Assembly: GCA_916048095.2 (NCBI GenBank)
Contig: OU696576.1
Span: forward strand, 10,659,058-10,723,057
Source of the DNA: Sacculina carcini
Taxonomy: Eukaryota; Arthropoda; Thecostraca; Sacculinidae
Reading direction: 5' to 3'
DNA length: 64,000 bases
A program made the translations under genes and the position numbers. Shown here one piece after another: positions 1 through 15,700 of this stretch. How positions within the stretch are numbered: position 1 is the stretch's first letter; each line of letters opens with the position of its first letter. The notes below the pieces were generated by a model. It worked only from the letters and a program-made list of their open reading frames with translations. It did no database searches and was not told the DNA's origin.

Positions 1-3000
1 GGGCACACTTAGATAACACTTAGGGCACACTTAGGTAACACTTAGGTAACACTTAGGGCACACTTAGGTAACACTTAGGTAACACTTAGGTAACACTTAG
101 GGCACACTTAGGTAACACTTAGGGCACACTTAGGTTACACTTAGGGCACACTTAGGGCACACTTAGATAACACTTAGGGCACACTTAGGTAACACTTAGG
201 TAACACTTAGGTAACACTTAGGTAACACTTAGGTAACACTTAGGTAACACTTAGGTAACACTTAGGTAACACTTAGGTAACACTTAGATAACACTTAGGT
301 AACACTTAGGTAACACTTAGGGCACACTTAGGTAACACTTAGGTAACACTTAGGGCACACTTAGGTAACACTTAGGGCACACTTAGGGCACACTTAGGAC
401 ACACTTAGGTAACACTTGGGTAACACTTAGGTAACACTTAGGTAACACTTAGGTAACACTTAGGTAACACTTAGGTAACACTTAGGGCACACTTAGGGCA
501 CACTTAGGGCACACTTAGGGCACACTTAGGGCACACTTAGGGCACACTTAGGTAACACTTAGGGCACACTTAGGTAACACGTAGGTAACACTTAGGTAAC
601 ACTTAGGGTACACTTAGGTAACACTTAGGGCACACTTAGGTAACACTTAGGTAACACTTAGGTAACACTTAGGGCACACTTAGGGCACACTTAGGGCACA
701 CTTAGGTAACACTTAGGGCACACTTAGGTAACACTTAGGTAACACTTAGGGCACACTTAGGTAACACTTAGGTAACACTTAGGTAACACTTAGGGCACAC
801 TTAGGTAACACTTAGGGCACACTTAGGTTACACTTAGGGCACACTTAGGGCACACTTAGATAACACTTAGGGCACACTTAGGTAACACTTAGGTAACACT
901 TAGGTAACACTTAGGTAACACTTAGGTAACACTTAGGTAACACTTAGGGCACACTTAGGTTACACTTAGGGCACACTTAGGGCACACTTAGATAACACTT
1001 AGGGCACACTTAGGTAACACTTAGGTAACACTTAGGTAACACTTAGGTAACACTTAGGTAACACTTAGGTAACACTTAGGGCACACTTAGGTAACACTTA
1101 TGGCACACTTAGGTAACACTTAGGTAACACTTAGGTAACACTTGGGTAACACTTAGGTAACACTTAGGGCACACTTAGGTAACACTTAGGTAACACTTAG
1201 GGCACACTTAGGTAACACTTAGGGCACACTTAGGTAACACTTAGGGCACACTTAGGTAACACTTAGGGCACACTTAGGTAACACTTAGGGCACACTTAGG
1301 TAACACTTAGGGCACACTTAGGTAACACTTAGGGCACACTTAGGGCACACTTAGGGCACACTTAGGTAACACTTAGGGCACACTTAGGTAACACTTAGGT
1401 AACACTTAGGTAACACTTAGGTAACACTTAGGTAACACTTAGGTAACACTTAGGTAACACTTAGGTAACACTTAGGTAACACTTAGGTAACACTTAGGTA
1501 ACACTTAGGTAACACTTATGTAACACTTAGGTAACACTTGGGTAACACTTAGGGCACACTTAGGTAACACTTAGGTAACACTTGGGTAACACTTAGGTAA
1601 CACTTAGGTAACACTTAGGTAACACTTAGGTAACACTTAGGGCACACTTAGGTAACACTTAGGGCACACTTAGGTAACACTTAGGGCACACTTAGGGCAC
1701 ACTTAGGGCAAACTTGGGTAACACTTAGGTAACACTTAGGTAACACTTAGGTAACACTTAGGCTACACTTAGGTAACACTTAGGGCACACTTAGGTAACA
1801 CTTAGGTAACACTTAGGTAACACTTAGGTAACACTTAGGTAACACTTAGGTAACACTTAGGTAACACTTAGATAACACTTAGGTAACACTTAGGTAACAC
1901 TTAGGGCACACTTAGGTAACACTTAGGTAACACTTAGGGCACACTTAGGTAACACTTAGGGCACACTTAGGGCACACTTAGGACACACTTAGGTAACACT
2001 TGGGTAACACTTAGGTAACACTTGGGTAACACTTAGGGCACACTTAGGTAACAGTTAGGGTACACTTAGGGCACACTTAGGGCACACTTAGGTAACACTT
2101 AGGTAACACTTAGGTAACACTTATGTAACACTTAGGTAACACTTAGGTAACACTTAGGTAACACTTATGTAACACTTAGGTAACACTTAGGTAACACTTA
2201 GGTAACACTTAGGGCACACTTAGGGCACACTTAGGTTACACTTAGGGCACACTTAGGGCACACTTAGATAACACTTAGGGCACACTTAGGTAACACTTAG
2301 GTAACACTTAGGTAACACTTAGGTAACACTTAGGTAACACTTAGGGCACACTTAGGTAACACTTAGGGCACACGTAGGTAACACTTAGGGCACACTTAGG
2401 TAACACTTAGGGCACACTTAGGTAACACTTAGGGCACACTTAGGTTACACTTAGGGCACACTTAGGGCACACTTAGATAACACTTAGGGCATACTTAGGT
2501 AACACTTAGGTAACACTTAGGTAACACTTAGGTAACACTTAGGTAACACTTAGGTAACACTTAGGGCACACTTAGGTTACACTTAGGGCACACTTAGGGC
2601 ACACTTAGATAACACTTAGGGCACACTTAGGTAACACTTAGGTTACACTTAGGGCACACTTAGGGCACACTTAGATAACACTTAGGGCACACTTAGGTAA
2701 CACTTAGGTAACACTTAGGTAACACTTAGGTAACACTTAGGTAACACTTAGGTAACACTTAGGGCACACTTAGGTAACACTTATGGCACACTTAGGTAAC
2801 ACTTAGGTAACACTTAGGTAACACTTGGGTAACACTTAGGTAACACTTAGGGCACACTTAGGTAACACTTAGGTAACACTTAGGGCACACTTAGGTAACA
2901 CTTAGGGCACACTTAGGTAACACTTAGGGCACACTTAGGTAACACTTAGGGCACACTTAGGTAACACTTAGGGCACACTTAGGTAACACTTAGGGCACAC

Positions 3001-6000: not shown

Positions 6001-8646
6001 CACTTAGGTAACACTTGGGTAACACTTAGGTAACACTTAGGGCACACTTAGGTAACACTTAGGTAACACTTAGGGCACACTTAGGTAACACTTAGGGCAC
6101 ACTTAGGTAACACTTAGGGCACACTTAGGTAACACTTAGGGCACACTTAGGTAACACTTAGGGCACACTTAGGTAACACTTAGGGCACACTTAGGTAACA
6201 CTTAGGGCACACTTAGGGCACACTTAGGGCACACTTAGGTAACACTTAGGGCACACTTAGGTAACACTTAGGTAACACTTAGGTAACACTTAGGGCACAC
6301 TTAGGTAACACTTAGGTAACACTTAGGTAACACTTAGGTAACACTTAGGTAACACTTAGGTAACACTTAGGTAACACTTAGGTAACACTTAGGTAACACT
6401 TAGGTAACACTTAGGTAACACTTATGTAACACTTAGGTAACACTTGGGTAACACTTAGGGCACACTTAGGTAACACTTAGGTAACACTTGGGTAACACTT
6501 AGGTAACACTTAGGTAACACTTAGGTAACACTTAGGTAACACTTAGGGCACACTTAGGTAACACTTAGGGCACACTTAGGTAACACTTAGGGCACACTTA
6601 GGGCACACTTAGGGCAAACTTGGGTAACACTTAGGTAACACTTAGGTAACACTTAGGTAACACTTAGGCTACACTTAGGTAACACTTAGGGCACACTTAG
6701 GTAACACTTAGGTAACACTTAGGTAACACTTAGGTAACACTTAGGTAACACTTAGGTAACACTTAGGTAACACTTAGATAACACTTAGGTAACACTTAGG
6801 TAACACTTAGGGCACACTTAGGTAACACTTAGGTAACACTTAGGGCACACTTAGGTAACACTTAGGGCACACTTAGGGCACACTTAGGACACACTTAGGT
6901 AACACTTGGGTAACACTTAGGTAACACTTGGGTAACACTTAGGGCACACTTAGGTAACAGTTAGGGTACACTTAGGGCACACTTAGGGCACACTTAGGTA
7001 ACACTTAGGTAACACTTAGGTAACACTTATGTAACACTTAGGTAACACTTAGGTAACACTTAGGTAACACTTAGGGCACACTTAGGGCACACTTAGGTTA
7101 CACTTAGGGCACACTTAGGGCACACTTAGATAACACTTAGGGCACACTTAGGTAACACTTAGGTAACACTTAGATAACACTTAGGTAACACTTAGGTAAC
7201 ACTTAGGGCACACTTAGGTAACACTTAGGTAACACTTAGGGCACACTTAGGTAACACTTAGGGCACACTTAGGGCACACTTAGGACACACTTAGGTAACA
7301 CTTGGGTAACACTTAGGTAACACTTAGGTAACACTTAGGTAACACTTAGGTAACACTTAGGTAACACTTAGGGCACACTTAGGGCACACTTAGGGCACAC
7401 TTAGGGCACACTTAGGGCACACTTAGGTAACACTTAGGGCACACTTAGGTAACACTTAGGTAACACTTAGGTAACACTTAGGGTACACTTAGGTAACACT
7501 TAGGGCACACTTAGGTAACACTTAGGTAACACTTAGGTAACACTTAGGGCACACTTAGGGCACACTTAGGGCACACTTAGGTAACACTTAGGGCACACTT
7601 AGGTAACACTTAGGTAACACTTAGGGCACACTTAGGTAACACTTAGGTAACACTTAGGTAACACTTAGGGCACACTTAGGTAACACTTAGGGCACACTTA
7701 GGTTACACTTAGGGCACACTTAGGGCACACTTAGGTAACACTTATGGCACACTTAGGTAACACTTAGGTAACACTTAGGTAACACTTGGGTAACACTTAG
7801 GTAACACTTAGGGCACACTTAGGTAACACTTAGGTAACACTTAGGGCACACTTAGGTAACACTTAGGGCACACTTAGGTAACACTTAGGGCACACTTAGG
7901 TAACACTTAGGGCACACTTAGGTAACACTTAGGGCACACTTAGGTAACACTTAGGGCACACTTAGGGCACACTTAGGGCACACTTAGGTAACACTTAGGG
8001 CACACTTAGGTAACACTTAGGTAACACTTAGGTAACACTTAGGGCACACTTAGGTAACACTTAGGTAACACTTAGGTAACACTTAGGTAACACTTAGGTA
8101 ACACTTAGGTAACACTTAGGTAACACTTAGGTAACACTTAGGTAACACTTAGGTAACACTTAGGTAACACTTATGTAACACTTAGGTAACACTTGGGTAA
8201 CACTTAGGGCACACTTAGGTAACACTTAGGTAACACTTGGGTAACACTTAGGTAACACTTAGGTAACACTTAGGTAACACTTAGGTAACACTTAGGGCAC
8301 ACTTAGGTAACACTTAGGGCACACTTAGGTAACACTTAGGGCACACTTAGGGCACACTTAGGGCAAACTTGGGTAACACTTAGGTAACACTTAGGTAACA
8401 CTTAGGTAACACTTAGGCTACACTTAGGTAACACTTAGGGCACACTTAGGTAACACTTAGGTAACACTTAGGTAACACTTAGGTAACACTTAGGTAACAC
8501 TTAGGTAACACTTAGGTAACACTTAGATAACACTTAGGTAACACTTAGGTAACACTTAGGGCACACTTAGGTAACACTTAGGTAACACTTAGGGCACACT
8601 TAGGTAACACTTAGGGCACACTTAGGGCACACTTAGGACACACTTA
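1..8646. repeat. 11-bp TTAGG-containing satellite array, left arm
   Basis: The whole stretch is head-to-tail 11-bp monomers, and 8646 is exactly 786 x 11, so there is no net length slippage. Two monomers dominate, GGTAACACTTA and GGGCACACTTA. Recurrent minor variants include GATAACACTTA, GGTTACACTTA, GGGTACACTTA, GGCTACACTTA, GGACACACTTA, GGTAACACTTG, TGTAACACTTA, TGGCACACTTA, GGTAACAGTTA and GGGCAAACTTG. Variation falls mostly in positions 1-5, while the CACTTA core is nearly invariant. Across each junction the sequence reads TTAGG, the arthropod telomere pentamer. Because 11 is not a multiple of 3 and each monomer carries TAA or TAG on one strand or the other, all frames are stopped frequently, so the array cannot encode protein. 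No gene or RNA is visible inside it. A telomere-derived or subtelomeric origin is inference. Confidence 0.98.
3301..7424. repeat. 4.1-kb satellite block duplicated at ~41.58-45.69 kb
   Basis: From about 3690 to 7424 every landmark I checked recurs at an offset of 38,270 bp (for example 3961/42231, 5281/43551, 6601/44871 and 7141/45411). Upstream to about 3301 the match continues after a single-monomer shift. The offset is 1 modulo 11, as expected because the 4,137-bp LINE (1 mod 11) lies between the copies. Matching breaks at about 7424/45694, where the distal copy has two extra B monomers. Confidence 0.85.
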
Positions 8647-8666
8647 ACAACAACAACAACAACAAC
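8646..8666 (-). repeat. (TTG)n microsatellite tail of the LINE
   Basis: Seven AAC units on the plus strand, reading GTT x7 on the element strand, form the 3' terminus and abut the satellite. The A at 8646 can be assigned either to the tail or to the final A of the satellite monomer GGACACACTTA. A short microsatellite tail instead of poly(A) is typical of CR1/L2-type elements. Confidence 0.9.
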
Positions 8667-8866
8667 AGTGTGTATTTGGTATAGCGCCCATCATCATAGG
8701 CGCGCAGACGAGTACATATACAGATAAACATGAAATATAAACTGGCAATGCGAGCATGGGATCATACGATAATAATATAGAGCTCGATCACAAAACAACA
8801 AAATAAAACGCGGATTAAATCAAGGAGAAAACGCAGAATCAAACAAACAACTATATAAAAGAGAGA
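8667..8866 (-). other. LINE 3' UTR
   Basis: About 200 nt lie between the ORF2 stop and the simple-repeat tail. No ORF is visible, and I see no AATAAA on the minus strand. The distal end contains the hairpin listed separately. In L2-type elements the RT recognises the RNA through this region, so it is probably the part needed for mobilisation (established for related elements, inferred here). Confidence 0.8.
8684..8703 (-). promoter_or_regulatory. 3'-terminal stem-loop of the LINE RNA
   Basis: On the minus strand GCGCC (8703-8699) can pair with GGCGC (8688-8684) around the 10-nt loop TATGATGATG. The hairpin ends 17 nt before the (TTG)n tail. A short 3' hairpin just before a microsatellite tail is the recognition signal for RT in L2-clade elements such as eel UnaL2. 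Function here is by analogy. Confidence 0.6.
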
Positions 8867-11809
8867 TCAGAGGGAGGCGAAAGGAGTCAAGGCGTGCGTG
8901 GTGGGATCAAAGGATAGATCAAAAAGATATTTACGAAGAGAAGCAGCAAATGAGCGATATGAAAACGATGAGGTGATGTGAGAGGGGAGAGAGTTGTAAA
9001 GACGCGGACCGAAAAAGGAGAAAGATTTGGAAGACCACGCGGACTCATTTAAAGCGCGAGGGCAGGCTAAAGGGACAGGATGTCGAGAAGAGGGAGTTTC
9101 AGAGAGAGAAAGTAAGGCATAGAGATACGTAGGTTTAGTGGGACAGTGCAACAGTTTGAAGATTATGGAGCAAATTTTGAAGTGAATTCTAGATTTGATG
9201 GGAAGCCAGCGGAACTTGAAGAGATAAGGAGAAGTATGGCGGCAGAAGGCAGGATATAAAACAAAACGGCAGGATTGGTTCATCACACGCTGGAGAATTT
9301 TCAAAGAAGATTTAGGACACTTGAAGTGGAGCGAGCTGCAGTAATCCAGTCTAGAAAAGATGAGTGATTGAACAAGCTTGATAGAAGAGGGCTGGTCGAG
9401 GCATGAACGGATAGGATAGAGAGAGCGGAGTATAAGGCGACAGATGCGAGCAGTAGCAAGAATATTGGCAGAGAAGGAAAGTGAGGAATCAAAGATAATG
9501 CCAAGGTTTCTAACAGACGAAGAGAGAGATATAGGCAATAGAGGAGGAGACAAACGAGGAGGGTGAAGAGCAAGAAATTCTGATTTATCAGTATTCAGAA
9601 GAAGTCGACGGGAGGAGGTCCAAGAAGATATATCAGAAAGTATACCAGACAGAAGAGCAGGGTCAGAAAAGGGACAAGGTATATAGAATTGGATGTCATC
9701 AGCATATATGTGAAAAGGGATAGACCAGCGTCGAAGGATAGGGCAGAGAGAGGACATATAAAGATTGAAAAGAAGAGGACCAAGGATAGACCCTTGAGGT
9801 ACACCAGAGGTAAGAGGGATCGAATTAGAGACGGAAGAGTTGAACTGGACAGAGTAAGATCGATTATGCAAATAGGAGCGAAGCAAGGAGAGCGCGGAAT
9901 CAGAAACACCAATGTGAGAAAGGTCTTTAATGAGAATTTCATGATCTACAAGGTCAAATGCTGAGCTTAAGTCAAGAAGGACAAGGAGAATGGATTTTCG
10001 AAAGGAGAATGACGACAAAATACCTTCAGTGACCGAGATGAGGACAGATTCAGTACTATGAGAAGGACGAAATCCGGATTGGTGAATGTCAAGGACGTTA
10101 CAAATGAAAGGAGATAACTGAGAAAAGATGGCAGATTCCAGGAGTTTGGAGGAAAAACTAAGGAGGGATATAGGACGGTAGTTACAGCATAAGGAAGGTT
10201 CAAGCGAGGGCTTCTTGAGGATAGGGCGAACATAGGCGTGCTTATCAGCAAGAAAATTTCCATGTAAGAAGGAGGAGTTAATAAGATGGAGTAAATAAGG
10301 AGTCAGGGTGTCGATAGCAGGAGCAATTATACTGAAGTTAATCGGATCAGGAGGAGACGAGATAAATTTACGGGAGAAGAGAAGAGATAAGAAGTCAGAA
10401 ATTTCAAGATGAGAAAAGGATGAGAATTTGCATAGGGAGGTGGTATGTGTGACGAGGAAAGCAGAAGAAGGAATTCTAGATTGGGCGGAAATGATTTTGC
10501 TTGTGAAATAGGAGGAAAGCTCGTTGGCGGTTAGAGAGGAAACAGCTGAGGGCGAACGAAGGCCAGAGAGGGAGTTGAGTGTGTTCCAGAGAGCTTTAGG
10601 AGATCGAGAAAGAGAAGAAAGTCGAGACAAGTAATAAGCTTGCTTGGAGGATGCTAGAGAAGAAATATATAATGAGCGAGCAGAGCAAAAAGTAGACCAG
10701 TCACAAGAGAGGCGAGTGCGTCGCCAGGTACGCTCCAACGCCCTAGAACGACGTTTCAGACGATCAAGGTTAGGATTATTCCAAGGAGACGAACGAGGAC
10801 GAGAAGAACGGAGAGTCAGAGGGAACAAATGGTTGTTAATGAGGGATAGAGTAGAAAAGAGGAGAGGATAAATATCGGAGGGAGGAAGAGAGTAAAGAAT
10901 ATGTAGAGGAAAGGAATTTGCAAGAAGGGTCTGAAAGAGAGAAGGGTAAAAAAAATTGTAGTTGCGAGAAAAGGTAGGGGAAGGCATTGAATTAGGAGGT
11001 CCGGAGGCAGGAAGTGATGTAAGAATGAGACTATGGTCAGAGAAGGAAGAGTCGGGGGGAAGAACAAAAACTTCGGAAGGAGGAGAATCAGTAGAGAGAA
11101 CAGGAGAAGGGAAAAGAACTAAATCAAGAGTGTGGCCCGAAATGTGTGTGGGAGAAGAAACAGGAGATACAAGACCATGAGAATCAAGGAGAGAGATAAA
11201 ATTCGAGGAATATGAGGAAATAGCAGGACATTCGACCCAGAAATTAAAATCGCCGAGGACAAGATAACAACTAGAAAAGGAAGATTCAATAGCTTCAATA
11301 AGAGAGGAGAATTCAGAGAAAAAAGATGAAGTAGTGCAAGGATGATTATGTCGATAAACAATAAGAATACAAAATTTAGGATAGGATAGGTACGACGAAA
11401 GGCAAAGAGAAATGAACTCAAAGGAAGAAGGGGGAGGAATAGGATCAGGTAGAAGAGAAATAGGAAGAGACTTAGAAAACATACAGCCCACTCCACCTCC
11501 AGGGGATTTAGGATCAGTTCTGGCCTTATGGATGAAGGAAAAATCGGAGGGCATGTTAGATAGAAAGGATGGAAGATCGGTGTCCAGCAACCAAGTTTCG
11601 ACAAGGCATAGAATGGATAAGAGATGAAAGGAGACCAGATGGGACAGATAAGTTGTTTTGTGGCGGCAGGATCGAATATTGAGGAGTCCGACAGAGAGAG
11701 ATGCTGGAGAGTGTTGAGTGGATTGTACTAGAACTGAGGGCGGAGGGAGAGCTGAGGAAGAGTTATCACAGGGGAGAGAATAAGAGAAGGATGATGTTGG
11801 AGGAAGTAG
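8867..11809 (-). CDS. LINE ORF2: AP endonuclease + reverse transcriptase, no own AUG
   Basis: This is the pol protein that nicks target DNA and reverse-transcribes the element RNA at the nick. The open frame is 980 codons counted from the one after the ORF1 UGA, and it ends at TGA 8869-8867. The endonuclease includes GLLNIRS (41-47), LVETWL (69-74, catalytic Glu 71), GDFN (186-189), HTLDLV (226-231) and SDH (257-259). The RT includes NYRPISLL (from 543), QSGFRPSHSTE (from 577), LLDLSSAFD (first catalytic Asp 613), GVPQGSILGPLLF (from 669), YADD (702-705) and LGIIFDSSLSF (from 769). GPRLYNSLP near 934 is the usual CR1/L2 C-terminus. The first in-frame ATG (11554-11552, residue 86) lies after the Asn and Glu active-site motifs, so initiation there would give a dead endonuclease. 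Readthrough from ORF1 is therefore the likely route. One oddity is that the usual His two residues after GDFN is Trp (GDFNFW). No RNase H domain is seen. All RT catalytic aspartates are present. Confidence 0.93.
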   Translation of the reverse strand, partial: LLPPTSSFSYSLPCDNSSSALPPPSVLVQSTQHSPASLSVGLLNIRSCRHKTTYLSHLVSFHLLSILCLVETWLLDTDLPSFLSNMPSDFSFIHKARTDPKSPGGGVGCMFSKSLPISLLPDPIPPPSSFEFISLCLSSYLSYPKFCILIVYRHNHPCTTSSFFSEFSSLIEAIESSFSSCYLVLGDFNFWVECPAISSYSSNFISLLDSHGLVSPVSSPTHISGHTLDLVLFPSPVLSTDSPPSEVFVLPPDSSFSDHSLILTSLPASGPPNSMPSPTFSRNYNFFYPSLFQTLLANSFPLHILYSLPPSDIYPLLFSTLSLINNHLFPLTLRSSRPRSSPWNNPNLDRLKRRSRALERTWRRTRLSCDWSTFCSARSLYISSLASSKQAYYLSRLSSLSRSPKALWNTLNSLSGLRSPSAVSSLTANELSSYFTSKIISAQSRIPSSAFLVTHTTSLCKFSSFSHLEISDFLSLLFSRKFISSPPDPINFSIIAPAIDTLTPYLLHLINSSFLHGNFLADKHAYVRPILKKPSLEPSLCCNYRPISLLSFSSKLLESAIFSQLSPFICNVLDIHQSGFRPSHSTESVLISVTEGILSSFSFRKSILLVLLDLSSAFDLVDHEILIKDLSHIGVSDSALSLLRSYLHNRSYSVQFNSSVSNSIPLTSGVPQGSILGPLLFNLYMSSLCPILRRWSIPFHIYADDIQFYIPCPFSDPALLSGILSDISSWTSSRRLLLNTDKSEFLALHPPRLSPPLLPISLSSSVRNLGIIFDSSLSFSANILATARICRLILRSLYPIRSCLDQPSSIKLVQSLIFSRLDYCSSLHFKCPKSSLKILQRVMNQSCRFVLYPAFCRHTSPYLFKFRWLPIKSRIHFKICSIIFKLLHCPTKPTYLYALLSLSETPSSRHPVPLACPRALNESAWSSKSFSFFGPRLYNSLPSHITSSFSYRSFAASLRKYLFDLSFDPTTHALTPFASL

Positions 11810-11812
11810 TCA
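11804..11812 (-). promoter_or_regulatory. Candidate stop-codon readthrough site, UGA CUA
   Basis: The ORF1 stop (TGA, 11812-11810) is followed directly by CTA CTT in the same frame, and that frame stays open for 980 codons. UGA CUA is an established leaky-stop context in some viral and animal mRNAs. No ATG occurs in frame between this stop and the endonuclease motifs NIRS and VETW. The next 60 or so nt are pyrimidine-rich with no obvious stable hairpin, so the hexamer itself would be the main signal. The alternative is a chance nonsense mutation, for example CGA to TGA at a CpG, in a once-fused ORF. Confidence 0.7.
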
Positions 11813-12781
11813 GGCCCGAGAAGAGAGATGTTGAGAGGAAGACGGAAGAGACGATGAGGCTGGAGCGGCAGGAGAGGAGAGGGAGGAAGGTTGAGGCAAA
11901 GGATCATCAGATATAGCAGTGCGATGACGAATGGAGTTGCGAACTGAGATGAACGAAGGACATGAAGATAGGAAAGCAGAATGAGCGTGAGGGCGAGAGG
12001 AGGAAGCACAGTTGTTGCACTTATCCGGGAGTGAACGGTCACATTGAGAGGAACGATGGGGTCCTGCACAGTTGCCACACGTTTCGGCCCGCAAGCACCT
12101 CGCTTCACTGTGGCCAAGCCCCGCACAACGAGCGCAGCGGGAGACCCAGTAGCGGTCGTAAACTGGGCAAGTACGCAGTTCCACGAAAAGCCGGTCACCC
12201 ACAGACCGGATGGCCGCTCTGGCGGAGGGTGTTATCGAAAGGACAGCATGGCGAGTGTCGTTCCGAATTCGGGTGAAAAAGAGCAGTTTCACAGCGCTAT
12301 CATGTAGAGCGCCCAGAACAGGGTTTTTTCGGCGAATAAGCTCAATGAACGAGTCCGGCTCGAGATCCAGTGGCACGTTGGCGAGTGTGACCTTAGGTCT
12401 GAGAGATGCCGCTTTGGTACAGTGAGCATCAATCTGGGGATCAGCTGACCGCACACAGTTCAGCGCTCGCTCGGCATCGTGGGAAGAGGCGCATCTGATG
12501 ATTAGCCCACCCTTCGCAGATTGTCTGGACGACTCAACTGGGACATCGCGAAGCAACGGCGCGATCATCTTGGGACGCAGCGGTGATTTGCCTCGAGATT
12601 GTAGGAAGACAGCATTAGTGGGCCTCTTTGCCGGAGCAGCCACAACATCAGAAGTCAACTGCTGTTGCTTCCCACCAATCGAGCAGAGCGTCGACTCAAC
12701 GGCATCAAGCCGCTCCCGCATGCGAGACACATCCTCCTGGATCTGAAGCGCCAGCTTAGCCTTGGATAGGCACGGTGTGCA
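11810..12781 (-). CDS. LINE ORF1: Gag-like RNA-binding protein, 5'-truncated
   Basis: ORF1 proteins of LINEs bind the element RNA and form the ribonucleoprotein. Numbered from the in-frame GTG at 12802 in the flanking satellite, the frame is 330 residues. The first seven codons are satellite or junction, so the element itself begins at Cys8. Visible parts are a CTPC Cys pair (8-11), a probable coiled coil (about 18-48), an RRM-like region (about 95-212) and three zinc knuckles: C223/C226/H231/C236, C242/C245/H249/C254, and C262/C265 with H272 or H274 and C281. A Ser/Pro/Ala-rich tail (about 301-330) ends at TGA 11812-11810. The first ATG is Met28 (12721-12719). The missing start and the Cys pair at the break suggest 5' truncation within an N-terminal zinc finger (inference). 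RRM plus CCHC is the Gag type best known from jockey/R1/I-like LINEs. Confidence 0.88.
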   Translation of the reverse strand, partial: CTPCLSKAKLALQIQEDVSRMRERLDAVESTLCSIGGKQQQLTSDVVAAPAKRPTNAVFLQSRGKSPLRPKMIAPLLRDVPVESSRQSAKGGLIIRCASSHDAERALNCVRSADPQIDAHCTKAASLRPKVTLANVPLDLEPDSFIELIRRKNPVLGALHDSAVKLLFFTRIRNDTRHAVLSITPSARAAIRSVGDRLFVELRTCPVYDRYWVSRCARCAGLGHSEARCLRAETCGNCAGPHRSSQCDRSLPDKCNNCASSSRPHAHSAFLSSCPSFISVRNSIRHRTAISDDPLPQPSSLSSPAAPASSSLPSSSQHLSSRA

Positions 12782-12783
12782 CA
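12776..12783. other. 5' junction of the LINE with a TGTGCACA palindrome
   Basis: The last element bases form the 8-bp palindrome TGTGCACA, directly abutting satellite GGTAACACTTG. On the element strand GTGTGC also occurs in monomer B (GTGTGCCC), so microhomology may have helped complete the 5' junction. The element coding frame continues through this point into the satellite up to a GTG at 12802. That extension is junction-derived, not native protein. Confidence 0.5.
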
Positions 12784-15700
12784 GGTAACACTTGGGTAAC
12801 ACTTAGGTAACACTTGGGTAACACTTAGGGCACACTTAGGTAACAGTTAGGGTACACTTAGGGCACACTTAGGGCACACTTAGGTAACACTTAGGTAACA
12901 CTTAGGTAACACTTATGTAACACTTAGGTAACACTTAGGTAACACTTAGGTAACACTTAGGGCACACTTAGGGCACACTTAGGTTACACTTCGGGCACAC
13001 TTAGGGCACACTTAGATAACACTTAGGGCACACTTAGGTAACACTTAGGTAACACTTAGGTAACACTTAGGTAACACTTAGGTAACACTTAGGGCACACT
13101 TAGGTAACACTTAGGGCACACGTAGGTAACACTTAGGGCACACTTAGGTAACACTTAGGGCACACTTAGGTAACACTTAGGGCACACTTAGGTTACACTT
13201 AGGGCACACTTAGGGCACACTTAGATAACACTTAGGGCATACTTAGGTAACACTTAGGTAACACTTAGGTAACACTTAGGTAACACTTAGGTAACACTTA
13301 GGTAACACTTAGGGCACACTTAGGTTACACTTAGGGCACACTTAGGGCACACTTAGATAACACTTAGGGCACACTTAGGTAACACTTAGGTAACACTTAG
13401 GTAACACTTAGGTAACACTTAGGTAACACTTAGGGCACACTTAGGTAACACTTATGGCACACTTAGGTAACACTTAGGTAACACTTAGGTAACACTTGGG
13501 TAACACTTAGGTAACACTTAGGTAACACTTAGGTAACACTTAGGGTACACTTAGGCTACACTTAGGTAACACTTAGGGCACACTTAGGTAACACTTAGGT
13601 AACACTTAGGGCACACTTAGGTAACACTTAGGGCACACTTAGGTAACACTTAGGGCACACTTAGGTAACACTTAGGGCACACTTAGGTAACACTTAGGGC
13701 ACACTTAGGTAACACTTAGGGCACACTTAGGTAACACTTAGGGCACACTTAGGTAACACTTAGGGCACACTTAGGGCACACTTAGGGCACACTTAGGTAA
13801 CACTTAGGGCACACTTAGGTAACACTTAGGTAACACTTAGGTAACACTTAGGGCACACTTAGGTAACACTTAGGTAACACTTATGTAACACTTAGGTAAC
13901 ACTTAGGTAACACTTAGGTAACACTTAGGTAACACTTAGGTAACACTTAGGTAACACTTAGGTAACACTTAGGTAACACTTAGGTAACACTTAGGTAACA
14001 CTTAGGTAACACTTATGTAACACTTAGGTAACACTTGGGTAACACTTAGGGCACACTTAGGTAACACTTAGGTAACACTTGGGTAACACTTAGGTAACAC
14101 TTAGGTAACACTTAGGTAACACTTAGGTAACACTTAGATAACACTTAGGTAACACTTAGGTAACACTTAGGGCACACTTAGGTAACACTTAGGTAACACT
14201 TAGGGCACACTTAGGTAACACTTAGGGCACACTTAGGGCACACTTAGGACACACTTAGGTAACACTTGGGTAACACTTAGGTAACACTTGGGTAACACTT
14301 AGGGCACACTTAGGTAACAGTTAGGGTACACTTAGGGCACACTTAGGGCACACTTAGGTAACACTTAGGTAACACTTAGGTAACACTTATGTAACACTTA
14401 GGTAACACTTAGGTAACACTTAGGTAACACTTAGGGCACACTTAGGGCACACTTAGGTTACACTTAGGGCACACTTAGGGCACACTTAGATAACACTTAG
14501 GGCACACTTAGGTAACACTTAGGTAACACTTAGGTAACACTTAGGTAACACTTAGGTAACACTTAGGGCACACTTAGGTAACACTTATGGCACACTTAGG
14601 TAACACTTGGGTAACACTTAGGTAACACTTAGGTAACACTTAGGGCACACTTAGGTAACACTTAGGGCACACTTAGGTTACACTTAGGGCACACTTAGGG
14701 CACACTTAGGGCACACTTAGGGCACACTTAGGTAACACTTAGGGCACACTTAGGTAACACTTAGGTAACACTTAGGGCACACTTAGGTAACACTTAGGTA
14801 ACACTTAGGTAACACTTAGGGCACACTTAGGTAACACTTAGGGCACACTTAGGTAACACTTATGGCACACTTAGGTAACACTTAGGTAACACTTAGGTAA
14901 CACTTGGGTAACACTTAGGTAACACTTAGGTAACACTTAGGTAACACTTAGGGTACACTTAGGCTACACTTAGGTAACACTTAGGGCACACTTAGGTAAC
15001 ACTTAGGTAACACTTAGGGCACACTTAGGTAACACTTAGGGCACACTTAGGTAACACTTAGGGCACACTTAGGTAACACTTAGGGCACACTTAGGTAACA
15101 CTTAGGGCACACTTAGGTAACACTTAGGGCACACTTAGGTTACACTTAGGGCACACTTAGGGCACACTTAGATAACACTTAGGGCACACTTAGGTAACAC
15201 TTAGGTAACACTTAGGGCACACTTAGGTAACACTTAGGTAACACTTAGGTAACACTTAGGGCACACTTAGGTAACACTTAGGGCACACTTAGGTTACACT
15301 TAGGGCACACTTAGGGCACACTTAGATAACACTTAGGGCACACTTAGGTAACACTTAGGTAACACTTAGGTAACACTTAGGTAACACTTAGGTAACACTT
15401 AGGTAACACTTAGGTAACACTTAGGTAACACTTAGGTAACACTTAGATAACACTTAGGTAACACTTAGGTAACACTTAGGGCACACTTAGGTAACACTTA
15501 GGTAACACTTAGGGCACACTTAGGTAACACTTAGGGCACACTTAGGGCACACTTAGGACACACTTAGGTAACACTTGGGTAACACTTAGGTAACACTTAG
15601 GTAACACTTAGGTAACACTTAGGTAACACTTAGGTAACACTTAGGGCACACTTAGGGCACACTTAGGGCACACTTAGGGCACACTTAGGGCACACTTAGG

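Follow-up and report, generated by a model that had tools for sequence, protein, structure and literature searches.

A candidate readthrough stop between the two open reading frames of a LINE in Sacculina carcini, and comparable junctions in distant LINEs

Outside a few models, there is no settled account of how LINEs translate their second open reading frame (ORF2), and a six-base leaky stop would be a simple answer for whole lineages. The question is raised by a LINE in the window, the 64-kb stretch of Sacculina carcini DNA analyzed here, in which a single TGA, followed directly by CTA, separates ORF1 from an ORF2 in the same frame. We consider it likely (probability of roughly 0.7) that this junction is a programmed leaky stop yielding a Gag-Pol-like fusion, a reading built at the sequence level on four features: the two ORFs lie in frame, the hexanucleotide between them is of a leaky type, ORF2 offers no usable AUG, and the arrangement recurs in distant LINEs.

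The window is a single tandem array of a 22-bp unit, itself two similar ACACTTAGGTA-like 11-mers, present in ~2,900 copies (TRF, whole window), and the array is broken by one minus-strand LINE, which we take to be L2/CR1-like (Jockey group). Outside positions 8646 to 12784, the sequence is near-pure 22-bp (2 x 11-bp) satellite and contains TTAGG. The LINE is placed in phase between satellite units, with no clear target-site duplication, and no Rfam family matched at gathering thresholds in the interval 8500 to 13000. On its 5' side, it begins abruptly inside ORF1 at about position 12784; the upstream frame is open for 330 codons, the first few of which are satellite.

A protein search with ORF1 found two relatives, P0121 and P0122. 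The former (386 aa; 63 to 65% identity to the window ORF1) has an N-terminal part that is absent from the window; in the alignment, a last CxxC is the sole remnant of the N-terminal Cys-rich finger, and the ORF1 of P0121 ends about 16 residues before that of the window. Because P0121 has the finger that the window copy lost, the window copy is 5'-truncated and therefore nonautonomous, and the family is represented here by this one truncated copy. The tentative PHD and CCHC assignments in the window ORF1 are based on the Cys/His pattern and on alignment of the finger remnant with P0121; Pfam matched neither in either protein.

Table 1. Features of the window LINE and ORF1/ORF2 junctions of LINEs on the surveyed contigs (labeled L).
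Element	Feature	Position	Strand	Basis or layout
Window	LINE insertion, ~4.1 kb, 5'-truncated	8646..12784	-	both satellite junctions, array, RT tree
Window	3' tail, (TGT)n repeats	8646..8667	-	sequence
Window	ORF1 (Gag-like), 5' end missing within PHD-like finger, 324 codons left	11813..12784	-	frame and alignment with P0121
Window	CCHC-type zinc knuckles of ORF1	11960..12136	-	by eye; invariant Cys/His columns; no Pfam match
Window	ORF1 stop and next codon, TGA CTA (type II readthrough context)	11807..11812	-	sequence
Window	Ser/Pro-rich linker, 41 codons, from stop to LLNIRS, without ATG	11687..11809	-	reading frame
Window	ORF2, 980 aa, in ORF1 frame, terminal stop TGA TCT	8867..11809	-	reading frame
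Window	APE-type endonuclease domain	11033..11683	-	Pfam PF03372 (Exo_endo_phos), residues 43-259
Window	First in-frame ATG of ORF2 (residue 86), within endonuclease	11552..11554	-	reading frame
Window	Reverse transcriptase (RT) domain	9494..10213	-	Pfam PF00078 (RVT_1), residues 533-772, E 5e-32
L009, L018, L021, L023	junction TGA CTA			one frame, no early ATG
L014	junction TGA CTC			one frame, no early ATG
L022 (soil TM6 bin)	junction TAG CAA CTA	1644-1652		one frame, no early ATG
L005	junction TAG GAT			one frame, no early ATG
L006	junction TAG GGG			one frame, no early ATG
L031	junction TAG GAA			one frame, no early ATG
L029 (near-duplicate L030)	junction TGA CAA ACC			one frame, but ATGs at endonuclease motif
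L004, L017	ORF1 ends TAA			ORF2 in other frame, upstream ATG

A preliminary description of the locus had ORF1 ending at the TGA at 11812-11810 and the same frame running on for 980 codons through endonuclease and RT, and both the frame reading and the Pfam matches to Exo_endo_phos and RVT_1 bear this out, as the minus strand does for the CTA (11809-11807) placed directly after the stop. Across the ~1,300 codons of ORF1 and ORF2, the junction TGA is the sole stop, and there is no frame break. It was also correct that no in-frame ATG precedes residue 86: the motif LLNIRS, which we assign to the first endonuclease strand, starts at residue 42 and VETWL at residue 70, both ahead of the first Met. 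An enzyme started at the first ATG, in the window element as well as in the five Poribacteria-bin elements described below, would lack part of its endonuclease.

The open linker alone carries little weight because the coding strand is rich in C+T (~73% around the junction); among simulated 41-codon linkers of local composition, 49% were free of stops and 37% were free of both stops and ATG. The informative part of the layout is the CTA after the TGA, for which local composition predicts a frequency of ~1.2%. A strong pyrimidine bias runs along the LINE coding strand (8867-12000, minus), the plus strand reaches a GC skew of 0.5 and an AT skew of 0.39 in 2-kb bins, and ORF2 is Ser/Leu/Pro rich in the window as well as in two of its relatives (P0001 and P0002).

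That UGA CUA is a leaky context, as the preliminary description had it, accords with the portions of the literature consulted, in which high readthrough in human cells has this hexanucleotide as its consensus (PMC4359377) and viral type II sites use it or UGA CGG (PMC3542737). A G at position +7 and more distant positions add to UGA CUA readthrough (PMC12233894); among human genes with UGA CUA G, for example, the value for LDHB is 1.6% and that for AQP4 is 3.9% (PMC4359377, PMC12233894). The window junction has C at position +7, where the strongest human motif has G. Viral type I sites read UAG CAR YYA, and in tobacco mosaic virus the short local context is enough (PMC3542737). The window junction thus combines a known leaky context with an in-frame extension that encodes functional domains and has no earlier AUG. 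A 3' stimulatory structure, which is a common but not universal companion of readthrough, was not found there at the level of secondary structure.

More broadly, the 150 nt past each of 11 junctions contained no clear 3' structure beyond that of shuffled sequences (secondary structure only; z of -0.31 to 1.72), and the six TGA junctions had no notable gain in folding over shuffles (secondary structure only; z of -0.21 to 1.36). If these sites are leaky, the primary context may have to suffice. A small, similar-looking hairpin lies close after the UAG-G of L005 (416-448) and L006 (292-324), where total folding does not exceed that of shuffles.

Under the proposed mechanism, most ribosomes would terminate at the UGA and release ORF1p, a Gag-like RNA-binding protein, and a small share would decode the UGA as sense and stay in frame to produce an ORF1p-endonuclease-RT fusion. 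ORF1p would then be made in excess over the enzyme with the two remaining coupled, as for retroviral Gag and Gag-Pol, and the truncated window copy would be the record of an active parent. Readthrough itself, its rate, and the fusion as a working enzyme are what we infer from these features.

The layout was sought in other LINEs by scanning contigs of prokaryote genomes with a profile, which gave 34 loci with relatives of the window LINE, taken as eukaryotic contamination of the assemblies; more loci were sought in the genomes behind 24 of these. Once loci sharing a 200-base middle were merged, the full set came to 34 distinct contigs, of which 29 had an endonuclease match; L069, one of the five that did not, was read on the longer contig L073. 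Thirteen contigs were judged, mostly by eye, to have ORF1 beside ORF2 (L073 and, apart from the near-duplicate L030, those in Table 1), with the ORF1s of L005, L006, and L029 cut by the contig start and the endonuclease starts of L022 and L031 re-placed, the automatic positions lying too far in. Left out were contigs on which no ORF of 90 codons lies upstream in the vicinity of the endonuclease, as well as L003, L027, L032, and L033, whose short upstream ORFs have no ORF1 features by eye. Of six ORF1s scanned (P0121, L009, L018, L021, L022, and L031), only those of L018 and L021 have a Pfam PHD finger.

Nine of the 13 contigs have the window-type layout, with ORF1 and ORF2 in one frame, a single stop separating them, and no ATG in ORF2 ahead of the endonuclease motif (Table 1). 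The TAG-G junctions of L005, L006, and L031 match no known leaky hexanucleotide. In L073 (1420-4158), an ORF2 without an early ATG overlaps the upstream ORF, which is in a different frame, by ~13 nt, an arrangement suggestive of frameshifting. We also found a 2A-like NPGP motif in the N-terminal part of ORF1 in L009 (2-1474) and L031 (373-1458), so that these elements, each with an in-frame stop before ORF2, possibly carry two recoding devices. By eye, NPGP 2A-like motifs lie upstream of the endonuclease in the ORF2 frame in all seven of L010 to L013, L019, L027, and L028, which come from Bathymodiolus-symbiont and Marinifilum bins.

Further searches, in sets of 84, 101, 136, and 3 assemblies from matching bacterial phyla, added no TGA-CTA element among the loci read (fragments L074, L075, and L077 excepted). 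A single-protein scan of genome contigs had no match, and viral contigs gave one short RT fragment in total with the window ORF2, three alignments of ORF2 relatives, and ORF1 as queries. Among the best 20 of 423 plasmid records from tblastn, 18 were annotated group II intron enzymes and 2 were unannotated, and none covered 80% of the query.

A junction like that of the window recurs in five families from Poribacteria bins (L009, L014, L018, L021, and L023), whose records name the bacterial bin only and whose host is presumed to be a sponge. Protein identity among them is 38 to 56%, and their silent sites are saturated, with the third base the same at 23 to 38% of conserved four-fold residues. 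All five junctions have TGA followed by a Leu codon, which is CTA in four families and CTC in the fifth, and so stop and context are kept in a clade separate from the window; by comparison, 1 of the 49 invariant Leu columns of their alignment has CTA in at least four rows. The first Met of these ORF2s lies at residue 67 to 341. Counting against the proposed reading, TGA CTA is also the terminal stop of the L023 ORF2, 1 of the 10 ORF2 ends that the examined contigs contain (L021 runs off its contig).

Recognized leaky contexts make up 1.08% of the stop triplets in the ten same-frame elements without an early ATG (window included), and a type I or type II context is found at 6 of the 10 junctions (P = 3e-10 per element, shared descent ignored). 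Counted over five lineages (the window, the Poribacteria-bin clade, L005 with L006, L022, and L031), such a context is present in three (P = 1.2e-5); with the window dropped as the discovery case, it is present in two of four (P = 6.9e-4). Junction sites are part of these background counts; without them, the P values are lower. None of the 10 junctions has TAA, which accounts for 42% of stop triplets; P for this is 0.004 per element and 0.06 per lineage.

The alternative that survives best, which we nevertheless regard as unlikely, is that the TGA is an ordinary terminator and that translation of ORF2 starts independently, through reinitiation or internal entry, at a non-AUG codon of the pyrimidine-rich linker, the shared frame being due to chance. 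Chance would supply a shared frame in 1 of 3 cases and, according to the simulations above, an open C+T-rich linker in about half, and in the parts of the literature covered, SART1 and L1 have been reported or proposed to use unconventional reinitiation (PMC5972666). However, ORF1 and ORF2 share a frame in 10 of the 13 contigs (P = 0.0016), and no common near-cognate start is seen by eye after the stops, whereas the CTA after the stop is shared. A frame difference together with an ORF2 ATG, named in the preliminary description as an observation that would speak against a leaky stop, does occur in L004 and L017; these are other LINEs, the survey lying outside the window's own family.

The protein relatives of ORF2 bear on the same issue. 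Among the best 120 of 265 matches, P0001, P0002, and P0003 have 63, 61, and 46% identity to the window ORF2 and P0012 has 42%. The predicted start is at or after NIRS in 8 of the 12 best relatives (P0001, P0002, P0004, and P0006 to P0010) and before it in four (P0003, P0005, P0011, and P0012), which indicates that some relatives may start ORF2 separately. These starts are only a hint, since they are gene-finder calls, with a first M that may represent GTG or TTG.

We consider it improbable that the master element had an ATG-started ORF2 or a single fused ORF and that the window copy is simply dead, through a chance nonsense mutation and/or loss of the ATG. The 5' truncation would fit such a history, as would the initial Met located 22 and 29 residues ahead of GLLNIRS in P0003 and P0012. 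Yet the closest relative, P0001, is predicted to start only past NIRS, and no fused ORF1-ORF2 was found among P0001 to P0003; a protein search for fusions likewise had no match, but it also missed the known relatives P0001 and P0003. Both ORFs are otherwise open and the stop stands in a leaky context, and with no other stop or frame break a random nonsense mutation would have had to strike the interdomain linker, just before CTA. That the host decodes UGA as an amino acid, as the one TGA in an otherwise continuous frame might suggest, was rejected as highly improbable, given that the junction is the sole in-frame TGA, that the 980-codon ORF2 itself ends at TGA, and that the Poribacteria-bin ORF2s have no internal TGA and, in the cases whose end the contig includes, terminate in TAG, TAA, or TGA.

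The proposal of a retrovirus-like programmed UGA made in the preliminary description therefore stands in part: the layout in 9 of 13 contigs, TGA CTA in four of five families, and TAG CAA CTA in another lineage favor it, and the predicted upstream starts in 4 of 12 relatives and the fact that folding revealed no 3' structure count against it.

Whether such junctions have one origin or several was approached with an RT tree of 47 rows, which places the window with P0001 to P0003 (100/100) inside a larger supported group of LINE proteins (100/99). The families from Poribacteria bins come together as a separate clade (99/97), adjoining L017 and L029, and L005 with L006, L022, and L031 are each placed elsewhere. 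Elements of different layout lie in between, which favors repeated origin or repeated loss, although the deep order is uncertain because L028, which pairs with L031, was flagged as a long branch, the rows of the window, L022, and L029 were flagged for unusual composition, and the tree has no named reference clades. We lean slightly toward the view that virus-type leaky stops (UGA CUA, UAG CAR YYA, and possibly UAG G) evolved repeatedly in LINEs and that readthrough may be a widespread Gag-Pol-like mode of expression.

If leaky stops are used in this way, LINEs would share the retroviral solution, in which Gag is made in excess of an enzyme that is covalently linked, and this would have consequences for how RNPs assemble. 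An ORF2 without an ATG is easily mistaken for a broken gene, and readthrough, if true, would bear on such annotation calls.

Paramecium, which has its own genetic code, provides the nearest precedent within the literature searched, in the form of a LINE group with suggested readthrough. In Group 3 of the Paramecium tetraurelia LINEs, ORF1 and ORF2 share one frame and readthrough of the ORF1 stop was suggested by the authors (PMC5405496). That group belongs to a ciliate clade, and the available portion of that paper describes neither a hexanucleotide motif nor an experiment. Other LINE RNAs also have ORF1 before ORF2, as in the window, but differ in how ORF2 is reached: for SART1 and L1 by the reported or proposed reinitiation noted above, and for Zorro3 through an ORF2 ATG that retrotransposition needs (PMC1965478). 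LINE reviews, as far as covered, likewise describe reinitiation or unconventional initiation of ORF2 (PMC5972666, PMC2881922).

Outside LINEs, retroviral and LTR gag-pol genes such as those of MuLV (UAG; PMC5009743) and Tca2 (UGA; PMC2194720) resemble the window in having one frame and one stop, although MuLV uses a pseudoknot (PMC5009743) and the Tca2 junction alone failed to direct readthrough in yeast (PMC2194720). Type II viral readthrough, in alphaviruses, coltiviruses, and others, uses the same stop and next triplet as the window and in several cases extends into the replicase, but mostly with a 3' RNA structure (PMC3542737) of the kind that was not found at the window junction. The TAG CAA CTA of L022 fits the type I motif of tobamoviruses (PMC3542737), a match of sequence alone and in a LINE. 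In the literature searched, which leaves out most subscription papers and Repbase notes, neither UGA CUA nor UAG CARYYA is described at the junction of a LINE. Overall, a single in-frame gag-pol stop is already known from retroviral and LTR elements, as is suggested readthrough from one Paramecium LINE group; what appears new here is the presence of virus-type leaky contexts, putative readthrough sites, at LINE ORF1/ORF2 junctions, together with a broad comparative signal.
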